Made by a program: the position numbers and the translations under genes
Shown here: positions 54,751 through 64,000 of the stretch, piece after piece
Numbering within the stretch: the stretch's first letter is position 1
Layout of the letters: the number at the start of each line of letters is the position of its first letter
NCBI GenBank assembly: GCA_032595685.2
Contig: CP159373.1
Coordinates: forward strand, 703,001 to 767,000
Direction: 5' to 3'
DNA: 64,000 nucleotides
Source of the DNA: Candidatus Electrothrix aestuarii
GTDB taxonomy: Bacteria; Desulfobacterota; Desulfobulbia; Desulfobulbales; Desulfobulbaceae
Notes under the pieces: model-generated
Told to the model about the DNA's origin: nothing
The model's database searches: none
What the model saw: only the letters and a program-made list of their open reading frames with translations

Positions 54751-57567
54751 ATGATTTCAAACAAACAAAAACTTCTCGCAAGCACGACATCTTACTGTTT
54801 CACTACACTTTTTGTACTTCTACTAGCCTCTGTTGCGGCAGCAAAAATTATTTACGTACCCAATGATTATCCCTCCCTAAGCGCGGCAATTCAGGCCGCA
54901 CAGGAAAAGGATACCATCAGGGTTGCCCAAGGAAAATACCTGGAAAGGGTCTCCCTGCGACCGGGTATTATCCTGGAAGGCAGCTGGGACAGCAACTTCA
55001 CCAAACGCGACCTCGCAGCCTCCCCTTCCATATTAGGCGGAAGCTCTATGGGTGGTTTCTCTGTCTTGGGTGCGAATAACACAGTCATAGACGGCTTTGT
55101 TATCACCGGTGGCAAGGCCCCGCTTATCGCCCCGGATGCCCCGATAGGTCCAGGTATCTTTGCCAGCGGCATTACCATTACCATAAAGAACAACCTTATC
55201 ATGGCGAATAACGCCGCAGGCATATTTCTCCATACCTGCAATGCCAAGGTAATCAGCAATATCATTATAGACAACGGCCAGGCTGGCATTTTCCTGGAGA
55301 AAAACACCTCAGCGCTCATCCAGGGCAATAAAATCTCCCAGAATCTTGCTGCGGGCATCAGGGTCGGCGATAACGTGCTCTCTGCAATCAATGTATCTAA
55401 TAATGTCCTGGATAATAATAAACGGGCAGGCATCAATGCAGCCTGGGCAACTGGCATCATCCGTAATAACATAGTCTACGAAAACGGCCATGCCGGTATA
55501 CGCGCTGCGGTCAGCCCTATGCTCATTGCTAATAATACGGTGACCAAGAACGTACTTGCCGGTATTTCCATTGGCGAGCCCCCTCTGGACGGAACTTCGG
55601 GCGGCAACAAAGAAGAGACAAAGACCCCGGAAATAAAGAATAATATCATCACCCATAACGGCGAGGCAGGTATTTACTCCAACGGCTCCGGGTATTCCCA
55701 TAACCTCCTCTTTGCCAATAACAAGGTCAATGGCTTCCACCCGGATTTCCTCTGGTATACCCGCCTCCAATTCGGGGGCTACGAGGATATCGTCAGCCTG
55801 GAAAAGAGTAAACATATCCTGGCGGATCCCCTCTTTGTCGATCCGGCCCAGCACGACTACCATCTGCGACCCGGCTCACCGGCCATAGACAGTGGCGACC
55901 CGGATGTCACCTTTAACGACAAGAACTTCGGTCCCTCCCTGGGGGCAGACATAAATGATATGGGTGCCTATGGCGGACCTTTTACCATTGCAGAGGCACG
56001 GCCTGTTAATCTTGCCCCGGTAGCGGATATTGAGCTGCCCAAGAATCCTCTCTATGCAGGCGATAAAATCACCCTGAACGGAGAAGTCAGCACAGACCCC
56101 AATGGTGACGAATTATCCTACACCTGGTATATGCTGGATAAACCAGTGGGAAGCAAGGCAAACCTCTCGGCAAACAGCAAGTCCAAGACCAAGCTGGCCT
56201 GCGACAAAGGCGGCACCTATAGAATTCGCCTGGATGTTACTGATCGCTGGGGATTTAAAAGCAGCCCCAAGACCATTACCCTGCGAGTTGATCCCAACAA
56301 GCCGCCCACAGCAAAAATAAGCAAACAGATGGAACCGGTAAACGTCGGTGATACCGTCAAACTCTCTACCTATGATAAGAAGAAACAGAACGGCGACGAG
56401 CTGAAATTCTTTTGGAGCTTCAGCAAAAAGCCTCCAGCGAGCAAGGCAAGCATCGTTGACGCCTCTGCCGCAAAGCCGACCTTTGTCATGGATACCCCTG
56501 GTTGCTATACCGTGCAGTTGCGGGTGTATAACGGCAAGAAATACAGCGAAGCAGCAACATCTCATATCTGCTCCCGACAGAGCCGCTTTGCTGGACAACG
56601 AATCGTCCCGGACGAATATCCAACCATACAGAGTGCCCTGGATACGGCGGAGCCCAACGACCAGATCATCGTGAAGGCCGGGACCTACAAAGAAAAGATC
56701 ATCGTTGATAAAGCTGTTGACCTTATCGGAGAGGGCTGGCCAGTGATTGACGGTGGTGGCGAAGATAATAACGACGCAACAGTCTTTATCTGTTATCTGG
56801 ACAATACCAGCACCGGCAAGATGGAAGGCTTTGTTGTCACGGGCGGAGGCTCAGGGATCTTCGGGCATGGCCTGCAAATCCTCAACTCCAGCCCGGAGAT
56901 CTTTAATAACCGAATTCGCGGCAATAAACATGTGGGCATCGGTATTCACGGTCATAAGCGCTTTACAGAAAAGACCAGGATCCACAATAACTTTATCTAT
57001 GACAATGCCATCGGGGTGAGTCATGGCCTCGGCACCTATGGTCAGGTCTACGATAACACCATCTATAATAATAAAGTCACCGGCATCGGGGTGCGCGGTC
57101 TCTCCAAACCGACCCTCAGGGGAAATAAGATCTACGATAATTACGTCGGCATAGGGGTTCGGGAAGAGGCCTACCCGCAGATTGAGAACAACGAGATCCG
57201 AAACAACATTGTTGGCATAGCCATTAATCCTGGAGCTGCAAATGCGGTCTATGCTGAAGAGGAGAACAGGATTAAGATCAGAAATAATTCCGTCTACAGC
57301 AACGAACAATGCGGTATTTTTATCTCCTCGCTCCATAGGAACGGGATTGTCACCCAGGGCAATGTCATCAGAGATAACAACACCTCGGCCACACCGCGTA
57401 ACAGAAGCGGCGGTGCGGTTGTGGGCTATCCGCACGAGAGCCTCTCGGATATCTTCTTGCATAATAACGACATACGGGGGAATAACGGCAAGGACATCCA
57501 GCAATTCAAGGCTATCGCGAGCTCTTATGGTGAGATCGGTGATTCCAAGAATCGCAGGCCGTTTTAG
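54751..57567 (+). CDS. Large secreted right-handed beta-helix protein with central PKD-like domains
   Basis: 938 residues. Signal peptide to ~32. First NosD-like beta-helix (~35-420) beginning IIYVPNDYPSLSAAIQAAQE, with coils such as NNAAGIFLHTCNAKVISN. Two PKD/cadherin-like beta-sandwich domains (~425-515 and ~518-600: STDPNGDELSYTWYMLDKPV, KFFWSFSKKPPASKASI). A second beta-helix (~605-935) restarts with VPDEYPTIQSALDTAEPNDQ. Probably cell-surface or extracellular, possibly carbohydrate-binding. The coil-start pattern is shared with the TIR fusion protein at 26527. Confidence 0.88.
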   Translation: MISNKQKLLASTTSYCFTTLFVLLLASVAAAKIIYVPNDYPSLSAAIQAAQEKDTIRVAQGKYLERVSLRPGIILEGSWDSNFTKRDLAASPSILGGSSMGGFSVLGANNTVIDGFVITGGKAPLIAPDAPIGPGIFASGITITIKNNLIMANNAAGIFLHTCNAKVISNIIIDNGQAGIFLEKNTSALIQGNKISQNLAAGIRVGDNVLSAINVSNNVLDNNKRAGINAAWATGIIRNNIVYENGHAGIRAAVSPMLIANNTVTKNVLAGISIGEPPLDGTSGGNKEETKTPEIKNNIITHNGEAGIYSNGSGYSHNLLFANNKVNGFHPDFLWYTRLQFGGYEDIVSLEKSKHILADPLFVDPAQHDYHLRPGSPAIDSGDPDVTFNDKNFGPSLGADINDMGAYGGPFTIAEARPVNLAPVADIELPKNPLYAGDKITLNGEVSTDPNGDELSYTWYMLDKPVGSKANLSANSKSKTKLACDKGGTYRIRLDVTDRWGFKSSPKTITLRVDPNKPPTAKISKQMEPVNVGDTVKLSTYDKKKQNGDELKFFWSFSKKPPASKASIVDASAAKPTFVMDTPGCYTVQLRVYNGKKYSEAATSHICSRQSRFAGQRIVPDEYPTIQSALDTAEPNDQIIVKAGTYKEKIIVDKAVDLIGEGWPVIDGGGEDNNDATVFICYLDNTSTGKMEGFVVTGGGSGIFGHGLQILNSSPEIFNNRIRGNKHVGIGIHGHKRFTEKTRIHNNFIYDNAIGVSHGLGTYGQVYDNTIYNNKVTGIGVRGLSKPTLRGNKIYDNYVGIGVREEAYPQIENNEIRNNIVGIAINPGAANAVYAEEENRIKIRNNSVYSNEQCGIFISSLHRNGIVTQGNVIRDNNTSATPRNRSGGAVVGYPHESLSDIFLHNNDIRGNNGKDIQQFKAIASSYGEIGDSKNRRPF

Positions 57568-58547: not shown

Positions 58548-58597
58548 TCAAGGTCACGACACACCATCAATCAAAAAAAACAAAAAAACTTTTCTGC

Positions 58598-58633
58598 TTA
58601 ATCTTCCGTTAACCTTTACTTTGCTATTGTAGA
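58598..58633 (+). promoter_or_regulatory. Direct-repeat box and promoter of RYEYRG gene 1
   Basis: TTAATC (58598) and TTAACC (58609) are spaced 11 bp start to start; a -10-like TATTGT follows ten bases later. The same layout recurs at 59121, 60895 and 61743. This resembles OmpR/PhoB-family binding sites that overlap the -35 region. Confidence 0.6.
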
Positions 58634-58686: not shown

Positions 58687-59013
58687 ATGAAAAAGACAAC
58701 AGCAGCCCTGACCCTCATTAGTTCGTTTCTCGTCCTGGGACTCTTTGCAACGGCACACGGCAGTGGTGGCGAACGCGGCAGCCGCTATGAATATCGTGGC
58801 GAGCGCGGAAGCAGTTATGAATACCGTGGTGGTGAGCGGGGTAGCCGCTACGAGTATCGCGGAACCGGGCGTTACTCCAATGATGACCGCTATGAATATC
58901 GCGGAAACGGACGTTACTCTGATGATGATCGATATGAATATCGCGGAAACAGACGCTCCGATGGCGATGATCGATATGAATACAGAGGCTACGGCTATGG
59001 TTATGGCTCCTGA
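58687..59013 (+). CDS. Secreted RYEYRG-repeat protein, copy 1
   Basis: 108 residues with a near-consensus GGAGG site. Signal peptide (MKKTTAALTLISSFLVLGLF, cleavage after AHG), then a mature part made almost only of Arg, Tyr, Glu, Gly, Ser and Asp. Seven variants of SRYEYRGE/DRYEYRGN repeat at 11- to 14-residue spacing and the tail ends YGYGYGS. Low-complexity and repetitive, so probably extended or self-associating outside the membrane. No described family recognised. First of three tandem paralogues. Confidence 0.88.
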   Translation: MKKTTAALTLISSFLVLGLFATAHGSGGERGSRYEYRGERGSSYEYRGGERGSRYEYRGTGRYSNDDRYEYRGNGRYSDDDRYEYRGNRRSDGDDRYEYRGYGYGYGS

Positions 59014-59120
59014 GAGGATGAGCAAACTTACCGACGCATGACAACAAGACGATGTCTGAGCCCATGATGCAGTGTCGGTAGTTTTCCAGGATAGCATAAA
59101 AAAAAGAAAAATTTTACCCG

Positions 59121-59156
59121 TTCATCTTCTCTTAACCTTTGCTTTGTTATCGTAGA
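59121..59156 (+). promoter_or_regulatory. Direct-repeat box and promoter of RYEYRG gene 2
   Basis: TTCATC (59121) and TTAACC (59132), 11-bp phase, with a -10-like TATCGT ten bases downstream. The whole upstream region is a divergent copy of that of gene 1. Confidence 0.6.
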
Positions 59157-59210
59157 GTTATAGATAAAAGCAGATTACTACACCCCTTATCACACAACGG
59201 AGGTTTACTC

Positions 59211-59531
59211 ATGAAAAAGACAACAGCAGCCCTGACCCTCATTAGTTCGTTTCTCGTCCTGGGACTCTTCGCAACTGCCCACGGCAGTGGTGGCGAGCGC
59301 GGCAGTCGTTATGAATATCGTGGCGAGCGCGGAAGCAGTTATGAATACCGTGGTGGTGAGCGTGGTAGCCGCTACGAGTATCGCGGAACCGGGCGTTACT
59401 CCGATGATGACCGCTATGAATATCGCGGAAACGGACGTTACTCCGATGATGATCGATATGAATATCGCGGAAACAGACGCTCCGATGGCGATGATCGATA
59501 TGAATACAGAGGCTACGGCTATGGCTCTTGA
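59211..59531 (+). CDS. Secreted RYEYRG-repeat protein, copy 2
   Basis: 106 residues, nearly identical to copy 1 over the signal peptide and repeats at both DNA and protein level; it differs by loss of one YG pair at the tail and a few substitutions such as Asn to Asp in GRYSDDDRYEYRG. ATG 59211 follows the same GGAGGTTTACTC leader. The pair is a recent tandem duplication of ~520 bp including its promoter. Confidence 0.88.
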   Translation: MKKTTAALTLISSFLVLGLFATAHGSGGERGSRYEYRGERGSSYEYRGGERGSRYEYRGTGRYSDDDRYEYRGNGRYSDDDRYEYRGNRRSDGDDRYEYRGYGYGS

Positions 59532-59643
59532 TGCCATGATGCAACGTGCTGACGCATAGAAGCTGCCTGAAAAAATGAGGCTGTGCCCCTCTAAATAGAA
59601 GAGCAACGTACTTTACCCATTATTACAACAGGAGATTTTCCCC

Positions 59644-59934
59644 ATGAAAATGAAAACAGCAACTCTCTCACTGATCGGTTCATTCTTCGTTCTGGCATTA
59701 TTTGCAACGGCTTACGGCAGTGGTGGTGAGCGCGGCAGCCGCGGCAGCCGTTATGAAGGCGAGCGAGGAAGTCGATACGAATACCGTGGTGGTGAGCGTG
59801 GCAGCAGATATGAGCGCGGCAGCCGTTATGAAGGTGAGCGTGGCAGTCGTTATGAAGGCGAGCGCGGCAGTCGTTATGAATATCGCAGAGACGGGCGTTA
59901 CTCCAATGATGATCGATATGAGTATCGCCGCTGA
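59644..59934 (+). CDS. Secreted RYEYRG-repeat protein, copy 3 (divergent)
   Basis: 96 residues. The signal peptide is similar but diverged (SLIGSFFVLALFATAYG). The repeat is more compact: GSRYEGERGSRYEYRGGERG with several RGSRYEGE units, ending DRYEYRR. A ribosome site (AGGAG) lies ten bases upstream. No direct-repeat box is evident just before it, so it may rely on read-through from copy 2. Confidence 0.85.
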   Translation: MKMKTATLSLIGSFFVLALFATAYGSGGERGSRGSRYEGERGSRYEYRGGERGSRYERGSRYEGERGSRYEGERGSRYEYRRDGRYSNDDRYEYRR

Positions 59935-60129: not shown

Positions 60130-60852
60130 ATGTTTCAGCAAAAAATTCAACCACGTCAAACAGCACTCTTTTTTCTGGCATGCGCCATTCTCTTGACCGT
60201 GCTGCACAGTATAGCTCAGGCTCTTATGATTTCTACTGGAAATCATTACGTGATGTGCATAGCAAGATATCTTGATCTGGATATAGAGAAGAATATACCG
60301 TCCTTCTATTCCGGCTTTATCCTCTTTTTCTCCTCCTTTCTCTTCTTTTGCATTTCCTTACTCGATACCAAGCAGGGAAAGACGCGCTATTACTGGCTCG
60401 GTCTTGCCGCTGTTTTTTGCTTTCTCTCTCTGGATGAAACCTTTGTTCTGCATGAGAGACTCGGTGATTACACAGAAAAACATATCACATCATCAGGTAT
60501 TCTTGAGGTAAGCGGATTACTCTATTTTCCCTGGATTATCCCCTACAGCATCCTGATGGCTATCCTGGGGCTGCTCTATTTCCGCTTTATTCTTCGCCTG
60601 CCCCGCAAGACAACTGTTCTTATGATCCTTTCCGCGATTATCTTTCTTACCGGGGCTGCTGGGTTGGATATGCTCGGAGGCAAAGAGGCAGAGCTAAACG
60701 GCTATTACAGCAACACCTATGTCGTGCTGTATACTATTGAAGAATTCCTGGAAATGAGCGGCGTTATCCTGCTTATCTACACCCTGCTTGATTATATTGA
60801 GCAGCGCTTCGGAAGAGGCCTCTGTTTCTCACTTGATTTACAGGAAACGTGA
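60130..60852 (+). CDS. Polytopic membrane protein with buried acidic and His residues, unknown
   Basis: 240 residues from ATG 60130, which has GGAGG five bases before it (a second ATG lies four codons upstream). About six membrane helices. Acidic/His motifs sit in or near helices: FLSLDETFVLHERLGDY, GAAGLDMLGGKEAELNGYYS and YTIEEFLEMSGVILLIYTLL. The DExxxxHE plus EExxE arrangement could bind metal. I recognise no named family. Candidate sRNA 1 lies ~80 bp downstream. Confidence 0.65.
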   Translation: MFQQKIQPRQTALFFLACAILLTVLHSIAQALMISTGNHYVMCIARYLDLDIEKNIPSFYSGFILFFSSFLFFCISLLDTKQGKTRYYWLGLAAVFCFLSLDETFVLHERLGDYTEKHITSSGILEVSGLLYFPWIIPYSILMAILGLLYFRFILRLPRKTTVLMILSAIIFLTGAAGLDMLGGKEAELNGYYSNTYVVLYTIEEFLEMSGVILLIYTLLDYIEQRFGRGLCFSLDLQET

Positions 60853-60894
60853 GAGGAATGAGGCTGGCATTTAATTTTATTTTTTTATGCCGCG

Positions 60895-60926
60895 TTCATC
60901 TTCTGTTAATCTTCTCCTGGTATAAT
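60895..60926 (+). promoter_or_regulatory. Direct-repeat box and promoter of candidate sRNA 1
   Basis: TTCATC (60895) and TTAATC (60906), 11-bp phase, followed nine bases later by a perfect -10 TATAAT (60921-60926). Same box as upstream of the RYEYRG genes. Confidence 0.65.
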
Positions 60927-61168: not shown

Positions 61169-61639
61169 ATGGCGATGATTTATCCCCAGAGAATGACCGC
61201 AACTGTAGAGGAAGATTTTGTCTTATTCCTTATCGGAATGCGGATAAATAAACTGTGGAAGGTCCATAAATGGCTGCCTGTGGCTCGTTCTATGCTCAAT
61301 ATGATTGATGAACTGTATGAACATCCTGAGCTTGGTTTTCTCAGTCATGAGCAGTGGATTGGCAGAACGACCGTCATGATGCAATACTGGAAATCGTTCG
61401 AACACCTGGAAAACTTTGCAAAGAATAGAACATCAGTCCATCTCCCTGTATGGACGCGCTTCAACAAACAGATAGGCACAAGCGGAGATGTTGGTATTTG
61501 GCACGAAACATACCTGTCCGGTAAAGGGCGTTACGAATGCGTATATAACAATATGCCTCAATTCGGGCTGGCAAAGGTTGGGAATCATATTGAAGCACGA
61601 GGAAAGTACCTGTCAGCTCGCTCCAGAATGAATGCATAG
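61169..61639 (+). CDS. DUF4188 family protein
   Basis: 156 residues. Typical DUF4188 sequence: DFVLFLIGMRINKLWKVHKW near the N-terminus, QYWKSFEHLENFAKN, and GIWHETYLSGKGRYECVYNN with a candidate catalytic His. The fold is a ferredoxin-like alpha/beta-barrel monooxygenase type; relatives include monooxygenase-like and aldoxime dehydratase-related proteins. Substrate unknown. Confidence 0.85.
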   Translation: MAMIYPQRMTATVEEDFVLFLIGMRINKLWKVHKWLPVARSMLNMIDELYEHPELGFLSHEQWIGRTTVMMQYWKSFEHLENFAKNRTSVHLPVWTRFNKQIGTSGDVGIWHETYLSGKGRYECVYNNMPQFGLAKVGNHIEARGKYLSARSRMNA

Positions 61640-61903: not shown

Positions 61904-63340
61904 CTAAAACGCTCGGTTGAGACCTGCCGCCCGCAACAGCCCTGCTACCCACTCCGGGGTGCCCGGTGCAATGACGTGGGTGTATAAGGCCAGGACATTC
62001 TTCTTTACCAAGCCATCACATTTCTCCTGAAAGCCGGTACCCCGCTCCATCCGCAAGGCCAGCTCTTCCGGCGCACCATCCCAGCTTTCCACCACCGAGT
62101 AACGAAACTCGTGCCCCTTCACCTGCGTACCCACAGGGTAGAACGCATTTTCCTGCTCAACAATAAAGGTGGAATAGCCGTGGGCCTGGGGTTTCGTTGA
62201 CATGCTGAAGGTCACCGGAAAGACCCCGGCAAGGGGAAATTCCTCTCCCTCAAGAATAATGGAGCGACCAAGGAAGATCAGCCCACCGCATTCCGCATAG
62301 ATGGGAAGCCCCTGTTCTGCGGCCTGCCGTACTGAATCCCGGAAGGAGACATTATCCGCCAGCTGCCGGGCACTGGTTTCAGGGAACCCCCCTCCGATAT
62401 ACAAGGCATCCAAATCATCAGGCAAGGCTTCAGCGCTCAGGGCATTGATCATGACCAGCTCTGCCCCGCCCTCTTGCAAGGCATCCAGGTTTTCCTGGTA
62501 GTAAAACTGAAAGGCTGCATCGCGCAGGACGCCGACCCGCACCCTCTTCGCTCCTGGAGCAGGCCCTGTCGATACAGGAGCCGGTGAGCTGAAACGCCGT
62601 TGTTCCATCAAACCTGTAATTCGCTCCAGATCAAAATGTTCTTCTGCAAGAGCAGTCAGGCGGTCCACAGCCGCATCACTTGCGGCGGCCCCGTACTCCT
62701 GATGCGGAGTCACCCCGAGATGACGCATGGGGAAGATATCCGTCTGCATGCGCGGGATAATTCCCACCACTGGAATACCGGTGTCTTTTTCCACTGCTTC
62801 GGTAATAATCCGCTCATGGCGAGGAGTGGCAATCTGATTAAGGATCACCCCGGCAATGCGCACCCGCCTATCCAGCTCCCGGCAGCCCAGGACCATCGCA
62901 GCAACCGTGCGGGTGGTCTTACTACAATTCATCACCAGCAGGACCGGCAGATCCAGGAGCACAGCCAGCTCAGCGGTAGAGAAACCGCCATCAGCGGTCA
63001 CCCCGTCATATAGACCTCTATTGCCCTCAATCAAGGCAAAATCAGCAGCAGCTGCGTGCTGCTGAAAGGAATCCGTCAGAGCAGCATCCGTCATGAGATA
63101 GGGGTCCAGATTATAGCAGGGACGTCCGGCAGCAGTACTCATCCAGCCTGCATCGATATAATCTGGTCCCTTTTTAAAGGGCACCACAGCATATCCACGG
63201 CGTTGCAGGGCAGCGGTCAGGGCCACTGAGGCCACGGATTTCCCGGAGCCGCCGCTCAACCCGGCAATAACGAGGCATCCTGTACTGTCCTCATCTTTTT
63301 GGCCTGTTCCGCTCACCTCGTGTTCATCTAACGCTGTCAT
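61904..63340 (-). CDS. cbiA: Cobyrinate a,c-diamide synthase
   Basis: 478 residues. An N-terminal P-loop amidoligase-like domain (VIAGLSGGSGKSVASVALTA, then FKKGPDYIDAGWMSTAAGRP) and a C-terminal class-I glutamine amidotransferase domain with nucleophile Cys in PIYAECGGLIFLG and LYIGGGFPETSA. Amidates the a and c side chains in cobalamin synthesis. The ATG overlaps the upstream gene's stop (ATGA). No other cobalamin genes are visible. Confidence 0.95.
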   Translation of the reverse strand: MTALDEHEVSGTGQKDEDSTGCLVIAGLSGGSGKSVASVALTAALQRRGYAVVPFKKGPDYIDAGWMSTAAGRPCYNLDPYLMTDAALTDSFQQHAAAADFALIEGNRGLYDGVTADGGFSTAELAVLLDLPVLLVMNCSKTTRTVAAMVLGCRELDRRVRIAGVILNQIATPRHERIITEAVEKDTGIPVVGIIPRMQTDIFPMRHLGVTPHQEYGAAASDAAVDRLTALAEEHFDLERITGLMEQRRFSSPAPVSTGPAPGAKRVRVGVLRDAAFQFYYQENLDALQEGGAELVMINALSAEALPDDLDALYIGGGFPETSARQLADNVSFRDSVRQAAEQGLPIYAECGGLIFLGRSIILEGEEFPLAGVFPVTFSMSTKPQAHGYSTFIVEQENAFYPVGTQVKGHEFRYSVVESWDGAPEELALRMERGTGFQEKCDGLVKKNVLALYTHVIAPGTPEWVAGLLRAAGLNRAF

Positions 63341-64000
63341 GAAGAAAATCTCAGAGTAAAATCCACATTCTGTAAATAGAAGGCCTCATGCTGGAGGCTG
63401 GCAAGCTGGAGGGGATGGCGGTCCAACTCGCCTTCTGCAAAACAAAGAGAAAGACCATCTTCCTGGGCAACAACCTCCTCAAGGATGGCGGTCTCATCCT
63501 TGCGGGAACGGTGCAGAAGGGCAGCAAGACGCAGAAGGACAGCAAGGCGGAGGATGGTTTTCCGCTTTGCCCTAGGTATCTTTCGTAAAAGTCTTTTGGA
63601 TATCTTTTTCCGATGACAACGCACCAGCGTGCTCATCCAATCCTGCTCCGAATAAGAAAAACCTGGCAGATCTGCATGGTCCAGGAGATAGGCCCCGTGT
63701 TTCTGATAGCCACTCAGGGAAACAGCCAAGCCAATCTCATGAAGGCTGCCAGCCCAGTAGAGAAGCTCCGCATCATCAGATTGTAAGCCCCAAGTCTGTT
63801 CACAGGCACTGAACAGGCGATGAGCCGTCCGATTCACCCGTTTCGCGTGCTTGGTGCTGATCTGAAAACGTTGCTGCACCGTTTCAACTGTTTTTAGACG
63901 ACTATCCTCGCAACGAATCCGCCCCAGACGCTCATAGAGTAATCCCTCTCGTAAGGCTCCATCAGAGACCCGCATCTTCTCTATACGCAGAGCCTCAAAG
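63337..64000 (-). CDS. Ppx/GppA-like phosphatase, C-terminal part (5' end outside the window)
   Basis: The frame is open to the window end (LRIEKMRVSDGALREGLLYE), so only ~220 C-terminal residues are seen. This matches the end of the Ppx/GppA ATPase core and its HD-like helical C-terminal domain: AHRLFSACEQTWGLQSDDAE, LYWAGSLHEIGLAVSLSGYQ and KHGAYLLDHADLPGFS. Exopolyphosphatase or pppGpp phosphohydrolase activity is the family role. Translationally coupled to cbiA. Confidence 0.85.
   Translation of the reverse strand, partial: FEALRIEKMRVSDGALREGLLYERLGRIRCEDSRLKTVETVQQRFQISTKHAKRVNRTAHRLFSACEQTWGLQSDDAELLYWAGSLHEIGLAVSLSGYQKHGAYLLDHADLPGFSYSEQDWMSTLVRCHRKKISKRLLRKIPRAKRKTILRLAVLLRLAALLHRSRKDETAILEEVVAQEDGLSLCFAEGELDRHPLQLASLQHEAFYLQNVDFTLRFSS

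Follow-up and report, generated by a model that had tools for sequence, protein, structure and literature searches.

A family of small Arg/Tyr/Glu repeat proteins (RYE), confined to the genus of the host bacterium, is encoded by genes that in most arrays follow a box of direct repeats, and the same box occurs before the gene of an OmpR-type regulator and before other envelope genes. The explanation that we tentatively propose, with confidence somewhat short of even, is that these genus-specific, exported and disordered Tyr/Arg/acidic repeat proteins would be the output of an autoregulated heavy-metal-type OmpR system, and would act as stickers in the cell envelope. The family, its distribution, the selection on its genes, the box, the presence of this box before the regulator and other envelope genes, and the linkage of the genes are read from the sequences; from them we infer the binding by the regulator, the signal, the export, the sticker action and the role of a neighboring membrane protein. 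Little is known about which proteins make up the envelope of cable bacteria; in this genus-wide, lineage-restricted family, for which a DNA box is defined and a regulator and a partner can be named as candidates, the purpose of the proteins becomes testable. The preliminary description of this DNA included neither the promoter box and the two-component regulon nor the membrane-protein partner. It had considered a cable bacterium as a possible host; given that the host genus includes Ca. Electrothrix, the host is indeed one.

The window, that is, the whole 64-kb stretch analyzed, corresponds to positions 703001-767000 of a single-contig genome of 5,110,699 bases. The host genome is designated G000, and G000-G007 are the eight genomes of the host genus. 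The features of the window that concern the RYE genes are the following:

58597..58616, + strand: promoter box before copy 1, two 11-bp direct repeats CTTAATCTTCC GTTAACCTT (G000:C1:761597-761616, 1 mismatch to the pattern)
58687..59013, + strand: RYE repeat protein copy 1, subfamily A, ORF of 108 aa
59121..59139, + strand: promoter box TTCATCTTCTCTTAACCTT before copy 2 (G000:C1:762121-762139, exact to the relaxed pattern)
59211..59531, + strand: RYE repeat protein copy 2, subfamily A, 106 aa from the ATG at 59211
59644..59934, + strand: RYE repeat protein copy 3, ORF of 96 aa, without a promoter box of its own
60130..60852, + strand: partner membrane protein of ~240 aa with seven long predicted helices, adjoining subfamily A in 8/8 genomes of the genus
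60894..60913, + strand: promoter box GTTCATCTTCTGTTAATCTT before the gene at 61169 (G000:C1:763894-763913)
61169..61639, + strand: Monooxy_af470-like protein (PF13826, 147.5 bits), a possible member of the regulon

In the ORF list copy 2 begins at an upstream TTG, which gives 130 aa; the ATG at 59211 was preferred. Copy 3 has no box of its own, and therefore it is probably transcribed from a promoter located further upstream. Other features of the window include a gene for a 938-aa beta-helix/PKD protein just upstream of the triplet (54751-57567, + strand), present in G000 and G007, and an ORF at 63337-63975 (- strand) that matches only domain III of the Ppx/GppA phosphatases (PF21447); its counterpart in G007 is longer (478 aa), and the ORF of the window may be split or begin further upstream. 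A scan of the 64-kb window for RNA families recovered two tRNAs and nothing else.

The positions of the triplet had been given exactly, and the signal-peptide-like start and the R/Y/E/G/S/D repeat are confirmed: there are three consecutive ORFs, all on the + strand. With the signal-peptide cleavage site set by eye, the presumed mature parts of copies 1, 2 and 3 have 83, 81 and 71 residues, of which R, Y, E, G, S, D and N represent 99-100%. The unit RYEYR is found 5, 5 and 3 times, respectively, versus a maximum of 2, 1 and 2 when each mature part was shuffled 5000 times, and the 13 units of the triplet are written with 9 different codings, so a recently arisen DNA repeat would not by itself account for them. 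Copies 1 and 2 differ at 9 of the first 104 codons, 8 of these differences being silent, and the comparison of the triplet with that of the nearest genome, G007, revealed 12 codon differences, 11 of them silent (P ~1e-6 to 9e-6 for this silent excess under neutral change). As read from the codons, the three RYE genes are under purifying selection; the composition, the excess of repeats over the shuffled sequences, the diversity of codons and the excess of silent changes together indicate that they are real, conserved protein genes. The near-identity of copies 1 and 2 reported previously is borne out in the coding region (97%, 311/321) and was overstated for the ~100 bp upstream (76%, 75/99). 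In the same way, the idea that the family is actively duplicating agrees with the variation of the copy number and repeat layout across the genus, in which the composition is kept, but not with the presence of the same triplet in G007, which implies that the triplet predates the split from this genome.

The distribution of the family was determined using a 19-row profile. The preliminary description had called for an HMM search with the repeat across Desulfobulbales; carried out as a profile search, it confined the family to the host genus, with hits at E <= 0.001 in 8 of the 257 genomes of the order, which are all eight of the genus, and none in the other 249. A profile search of 73 family genomes returned an identical set at this threshold, along with a weak DUF5666 protein of G016 at 0.0014. 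Reading of the loci gave a total of 23 intact genes, plus one fragment located where a contig ends, with one to four intact copies per genome (four in G002 and G006; three in G000, G003, G004 and G007; two in G001; and one, plus the fragment, in G005). Two subfamilies are distinguished: A, with the leader MKKTTAALTLIGSFLVLGLFATAHGSG, and B, with the leader MKKTAIALIGCFFAAAFFGTAHSSEHEYRYDNDRYEYRG, found in G001, G004, G005 and G006. In G004, G005 and G006, the neighbors of subfamily B are panB and the mraZ/dcw region (gene names read from the sequences), and the three members of this subfamily that were computed have 4-6 His and a net charge of -10 to -13. Some RYE proteins of G002 and G003 carry Pro/Ala/Thr-rich tails (PAPAPVPAP type), which indicates that the family gains and loses C-terminal extensions.

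Single-sequence searches also yielded matches outside the genus in G032, G071 and G079 (E 0.001-0.006) and in G017 and G043 (0.004-0.006). On reading, those of G032, G071, G079 and G043 were unrelated or low-complexity proteins, and those of G016 and G017 were DUF5666 proteins. When 84,980 species were scanned with two signal-peptide patterns, an approach that would miss relatives with other leaders, four loci were detected, three of Electrothrix type (Candidatus Electrothrix aarhusensis MCF, Ca. Electrothrix gigas AU1_5 and the Desulfobulbaceae MAG S24.Bin023) and one unrelated, a Burkholderiales protein that has the signal peptide alone in common with RYE. A phage or plasmid origin was rejected, as no tblastn match at 1e-3 appeared in two collections, with viral contigs lying outside the search. 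The statement that no described family has this repeat was upheld: copies 1 and 3 have no match at E <= 1 in Pfam and NCBIfam, nor does copy 1 among the PDB sequences, and the string RYEYRG was not found in any paper in our literature search. Papers on the function of DUF5666, on two-component systems of cable bacteria and on similar low-complexity proteins gave nothing on RYE proteins, and these are not mentioned in the available portions of the EMBO Reports comparison of cable genera (PMC11976967), the E. gigas paper (PMC10580974) and the sulphur-gene paper (PMC13047784).

At the N-terminus, a Lys-rich start, a hydrophobic stretch and an ATA-HG-SG region were recognized by eye, and on this putative Sec-type signal peptide the RYE proteins appear to be exported. 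The AlphaFold model (mean pLDDT 48.2) has one helix, at residues 3-24, and no other structure, so that the proteins look disordered in this low-confidence model. The leader is more conserved than the core, as would be expected if the RYE proteins were RiPP- or microcin-like precursor peptides with a conserved leader and a variable repeat core; nonetheless, this leader resembles a Sec signal peptide, no maturation enzyme was recognized among the 7 neighbor proteins scanned, and the conserved neighbor, a membrane protein, matches no Pfam family over the cut-off, hence we consider a precursor role very improbable. In another alternative, RYE proteins would serve the envelope or slime as structural or adhesive material of an elastomer-like kind, possibly Tyr-joined and perhaps placed near the conductive fibers. 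The low-complexity Tyr/Gly/Arg composition, the variable layout with kept composition and the restriction of the family to Electrothrix are in line with this alternative, but proteins so short (~70-85 residues in their mature form in the window), encoded by one to four genes and under a stress-type regulation, fit a bulk material less well, and we regard it as quite unlikely.

The evidence that connects the RYE genes with a regulator comes from their upstream DNA, which has in common GTTAATCTTCC-GTTAATCTT, followed by TTTGTTATCNTAGAATNATAAACAAGAG and a leader that is conserved as far as the start codon. The 20-base box pattern, allowing <=2 mismatches, was found at 25 sites in the eight genomes of the genus, versus 1 for the reversed pattern. 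Fourteen of these sites precede RYE genes (3 of them overlapping in one array), and a further 4 stand before decayed RYE remnants accompanied by a DUF4405 gene. Two precede the Monooxy_af470-like gene and 2 a conserved hairpin without an ORF; the three others lie before the genes of an SH3-like protein and of a VRVPVP-repeat protein and before a short ORF near dnaG. Counted by array, 11 of the 14 RYE arrays have a box site; of the other three, that of G003:C4 reaches the contig end after a partial box, G001-B has only a degenerate form of the box and G005-A is unreadable. In a G003 array, four repeats are in tandem. When the spacer of the GTTMAY-N5-GTTMAY motif was varied, 20 pairs were counted at a spacer of 5 and 0-4 at each of 15 other spacers (0 to 15); this count was made in long, partly overlapping loci picked around such sites, and thus it informs on spacing and not on frequency. 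When the pattern was relaxed to TTMAYCTT-N3-TTMAYCTT and one mismatch was allowed, there were 57 sites in six genomes, versus 7 for the reversed pattern. Several of these one-mismatch sites have no sensible downstream gene and are probably due to chance. Exact relaxed sites were located at 14 places in G000, G003 and G006: five before RYE genes, two before decayed RYE plus DUF4405, three before DUF5666 genes (the start codon of the G003 gene being our choice), and one each before the regulator and the Monooxy_af470-like, SH3-like and VRVPVP protein genes.

Several of these sites have features of their own. At G004:C96:13690-13709 (-) and G006:C1:342276-342295 (-), the box is followed by a conserved long-stem hairpin (GAAGGCAATTAA...TTAATTGCCTTC) and a U run with no ORF (folding z of -6.7 and -3.2, respectively), a candidate small RNA of the RYE regulon. 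The VRVPVP site (G003:C2:1022716, -) precedes a secreted-looking AVRVPVP-repeat protein that is also of low complexity. The decayed RYE remnants before the DUF4405 gene retain an intact-looking promoter in four genomes (in the host, G000:C1:476096), and in G003 genes for LTXXQ and EF-hand proteins are found near this locus. At G003:C1:2601578 (-), what follows the box and the entire leader is a short, unrelated ORF located upstream of dnaG, which gives the impression that the promoter cassette was copied by itself.

Pho boxes are 11-bp direct repeats, and the spacing of the repeats in the RYE box is the same. The RYE genes could therefore be thought to belong to the phosphate (PhoB) regulon; however, the RYE-type box precedes the gene of another regulator, and we deem this assignment highly unlikely. 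The upstream regions of phoU/phoB in G000, G003 and G006 were also inspected by eye, and have GTTAG-type repeats, not GTTAATCTT.

The regulator gene that carries the box has an orthologue in 7 of the 8 genus genomes, with an identity of 85-92% to the G004 query (in the host, the orthologue lies at G000:C1:4661060-4661731); it was not found in G005, a genome that is 69% complete. Using a 22-column matrix trained on 12 RYE promoters, a box was detected upstream of the regulator in all seven of these genomes, and in each of them none of 300 shuffles scored as well. The scores were 18-19 bits in five genomes, and lower in G001 (14.7, best shuffle 12.7) and G002 (11.5, best shuffle 10.3). In agreement with what characterizes the output genes of OmpR-type regulators, the RYE genes thus have upstream a tandem direct-repeat box that is common to the regulator gene. 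In G004 the regulator-kinase pair, in which the kinase frame is broken, is located ~5 kb from the RYE genes. Outside the genus, orthologues 74-75% identical are present in G013, G016, G026 and G034, with a distant match (48%) in G033.

The kind of signal may be approached through the families to which these proteins are closest. For the G003 orthologues, the best NCBIfam match of the regulator among the 105 families listed was TIGR01387 (cztR/silR/copR), at 250.8 bits and below the curated cut-off of 279.2, and that of the kinase among the 89 listed was TIGR01386 (cztS/silS/copS), at 213.3 bits and below the cut-off of 292.55. The genes behind other boxes include transport genes: in the host, an exact box is followed in one run by a DUF5666 gene (linker NERHERNERYEYERGERYRGES), a NodT-type outer-membrane protein and an RND adaptor, and in G016 a separate box precedes an operon for an outer-membrane protein, an adaptor and a CusA/CzcA pump (TIGR00914, 1096.5 bits, cut-off 701.45). 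The apparent link of the box to a metal-efflux operon of CusA/CzcA type comes from one genome, G016. In the available portion of a 2024 genome survey of nickel in cable bacteria (PMC11247825), no RND-type extracellular exporter of nickel is reported for these bacteria, and neither two-component nor histidine kinase occurs as a term; on the former point, the G016 pump should not be read as a nickel system.

These relationships bear on an alternative in which the RYE proteins would buffer cations in the periplasm, retaining metal ions during efflux by means of their Asp/Glu/Tyr clusters and, in subfamily B, of His. A box common to the CusA/CzcA operon and the DUF5666-efflux genes, a regulator closest to those for heavy metals, and the 4-6 His and net charge of -10 to -13 of the three subfamily B members argue for it. 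In contrast, the mature parts of the three window copies contain no Cys, Met or His, and their net charges are +1, 0 and +5; subfamily A of the window would be poor for soft metals, strong binding of which is unlikely in the absence of these residues, and we judge this alternative unlikely.

The other constant companion of the RYE genes is the partner membrane protein, which in G005 adjoins the RYE fragment. It has no Pfam family over the cut-off and no NCBIfam match. Its model has seven long helices (mean pLDDT 79.6) and no significant match among PDB structures (best Foldseek E 0.17), a result that does not denote a new fold. A rhodopsin-like protein was considered and rejected: the VIA-align comparison with xanthorhodopsin (Z 9.0, rmsd 4.7, 194 aligned) falls within what helical bundles give by chance, and the Lys that binds retinal in the last helix of rhodopsins has no counterpart, as no Lys is conserved at positions 195-227 of a 14-row alignment. 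The partner is therefore assigned to no family. The residues D102-E103, H108-E109, E204-E205 and E208 are invariant, which suggests a functional site. A second copy of the partner without RYE exists in G000, G004 and G007 between the same flanks (an NTPase-like gene and a cbiA-like gene), and in G006 and G002 RYE sits between two partner copies, one of which is disrupted in G006. From these arrangements we infer that RYE and the partner moved together at least twice.

In a neighboring genus (g10), the regulator is beside DUF5666 genes in 3 genomes, and boxes precede Tyr-rich small secreted proteins. On one contig of G016, an OmpR-type regulator-kinase pair is found together with a cytochrome b561, a Tyr-rich small secreted protein and DUF5666 genes whose linkers are rich in R, Y and E; boxes stand before the first of the DUF5666 genes and before a Tyr-rich array. 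The Tyr-rich exported-type proteins of G016, G026 and G034 have ~110 aa, end in YEYRR, YEYHH or YEYSR and have boxes in front. They share with RYE the signal-like start, the Tyr-rich low complexity, the YEYRR-like ends and the box, but they are rich in Asn/Tyr/Gly, whereas RYE is rich in Arg/Glu. A profile comparison gave a probability of 95% over the first 39-41 positions only, mostly signal peptide, and single BLASTP comparisons gave E 0.001 with one protein and 0.53 with another. Homology is thus suggested and not proven, and the g10 proteins may be relatives of RYE or parallel inventions.

In the sticker explanation that we tentatively favor, an envelope signal, probably metal or redox stress, would activate the kinase, and the regulator would bind the 11-bp direct repeats just upstream of the promoter to turn on the transcription of RYE and, through the same box, that of its own gene. 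The RYE protein would then be made, exported by Sec and cleaved, and its repeated Arg and Tyr residues would behave as weak multivalent stickers, with Gly/Ser and acidic clusters as the spacers between them. These stickers would coat anionic envelope polymers or form a gel with them, and/or retain cations on the outer side of the inner membrane. The neighboring membrane protein would serve the same job. Self-assembly, polyanion binding and metal/aromatic stacking, as put forward in the preliminary description, are at most candidate activities.

Among the known structures of these bacteria, the conductive fibers are described, in the portion of the source available, as having an insulating layer of protein and a nickel cofactor coordinated by sulphur (PMC10959288). 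RYE was rejected as the nickel-sulphur protein of the fiber: the mature parts of the three window copies have 0 Cys and 0 Met, and without sulphur ligands they cannot alone be a sulphur-coordinated nickel protein; a place in the fiber sheath is possible. The DUF5666 proteins (PF18914) are, as RYE appears to be, exported, are preceded by the same box and have an N-terminal R/Y/E-rich linker (in the host, RYEYERGERYRG), but RYE lacks the DUF5666 domain, the model of which was unmatched by copies 1 and 3 at E <= 1. A single BLASTP comparison of copy 1 with the host-type DUF5666 protein was marginal (E 0.005), so that homology to the linkers is suggestive and not proven. Spy and CpxP are small periplasmic stress proteins controlled by envelope two-component systems; RYE resembles them in being small, apparently exported and, as proposed here, under an OmpR-type switch, but Spy/CpxP are folded helical proteins with LTXXQ motifs, whereas RYE matched no Pfam family. 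In eukaryotic low-complexity proteins of FUS type and in resilin-like elastomers, Tyr and Arg stickers are spaced by Gly, Ser and acidic residues. RYE is similar to them in composition alone; it is bacterial and of exported type, and no shared ancestry is claimed. It is conceivable, but improbable in our view, that RYE is a secreted analogue of the eukaryotic Arg/Tyr sticker proteins, in which case the metal-type two-component system would release short RYE polymers to the periplasm, there to condense on the envelope polymers that surround the conductive fibers, protecting or insulating these; the Tyr/Asn-rich versions that fill the same slot of the regulon in neighboring genera would then make this a fast-evolving class of condensate proteins outside the bacterial cytoplasm. 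If the sticker explanation is true, condensate-type low-complexity proteins would extend to the bacterial periplasm, under the control of a stress sensor.
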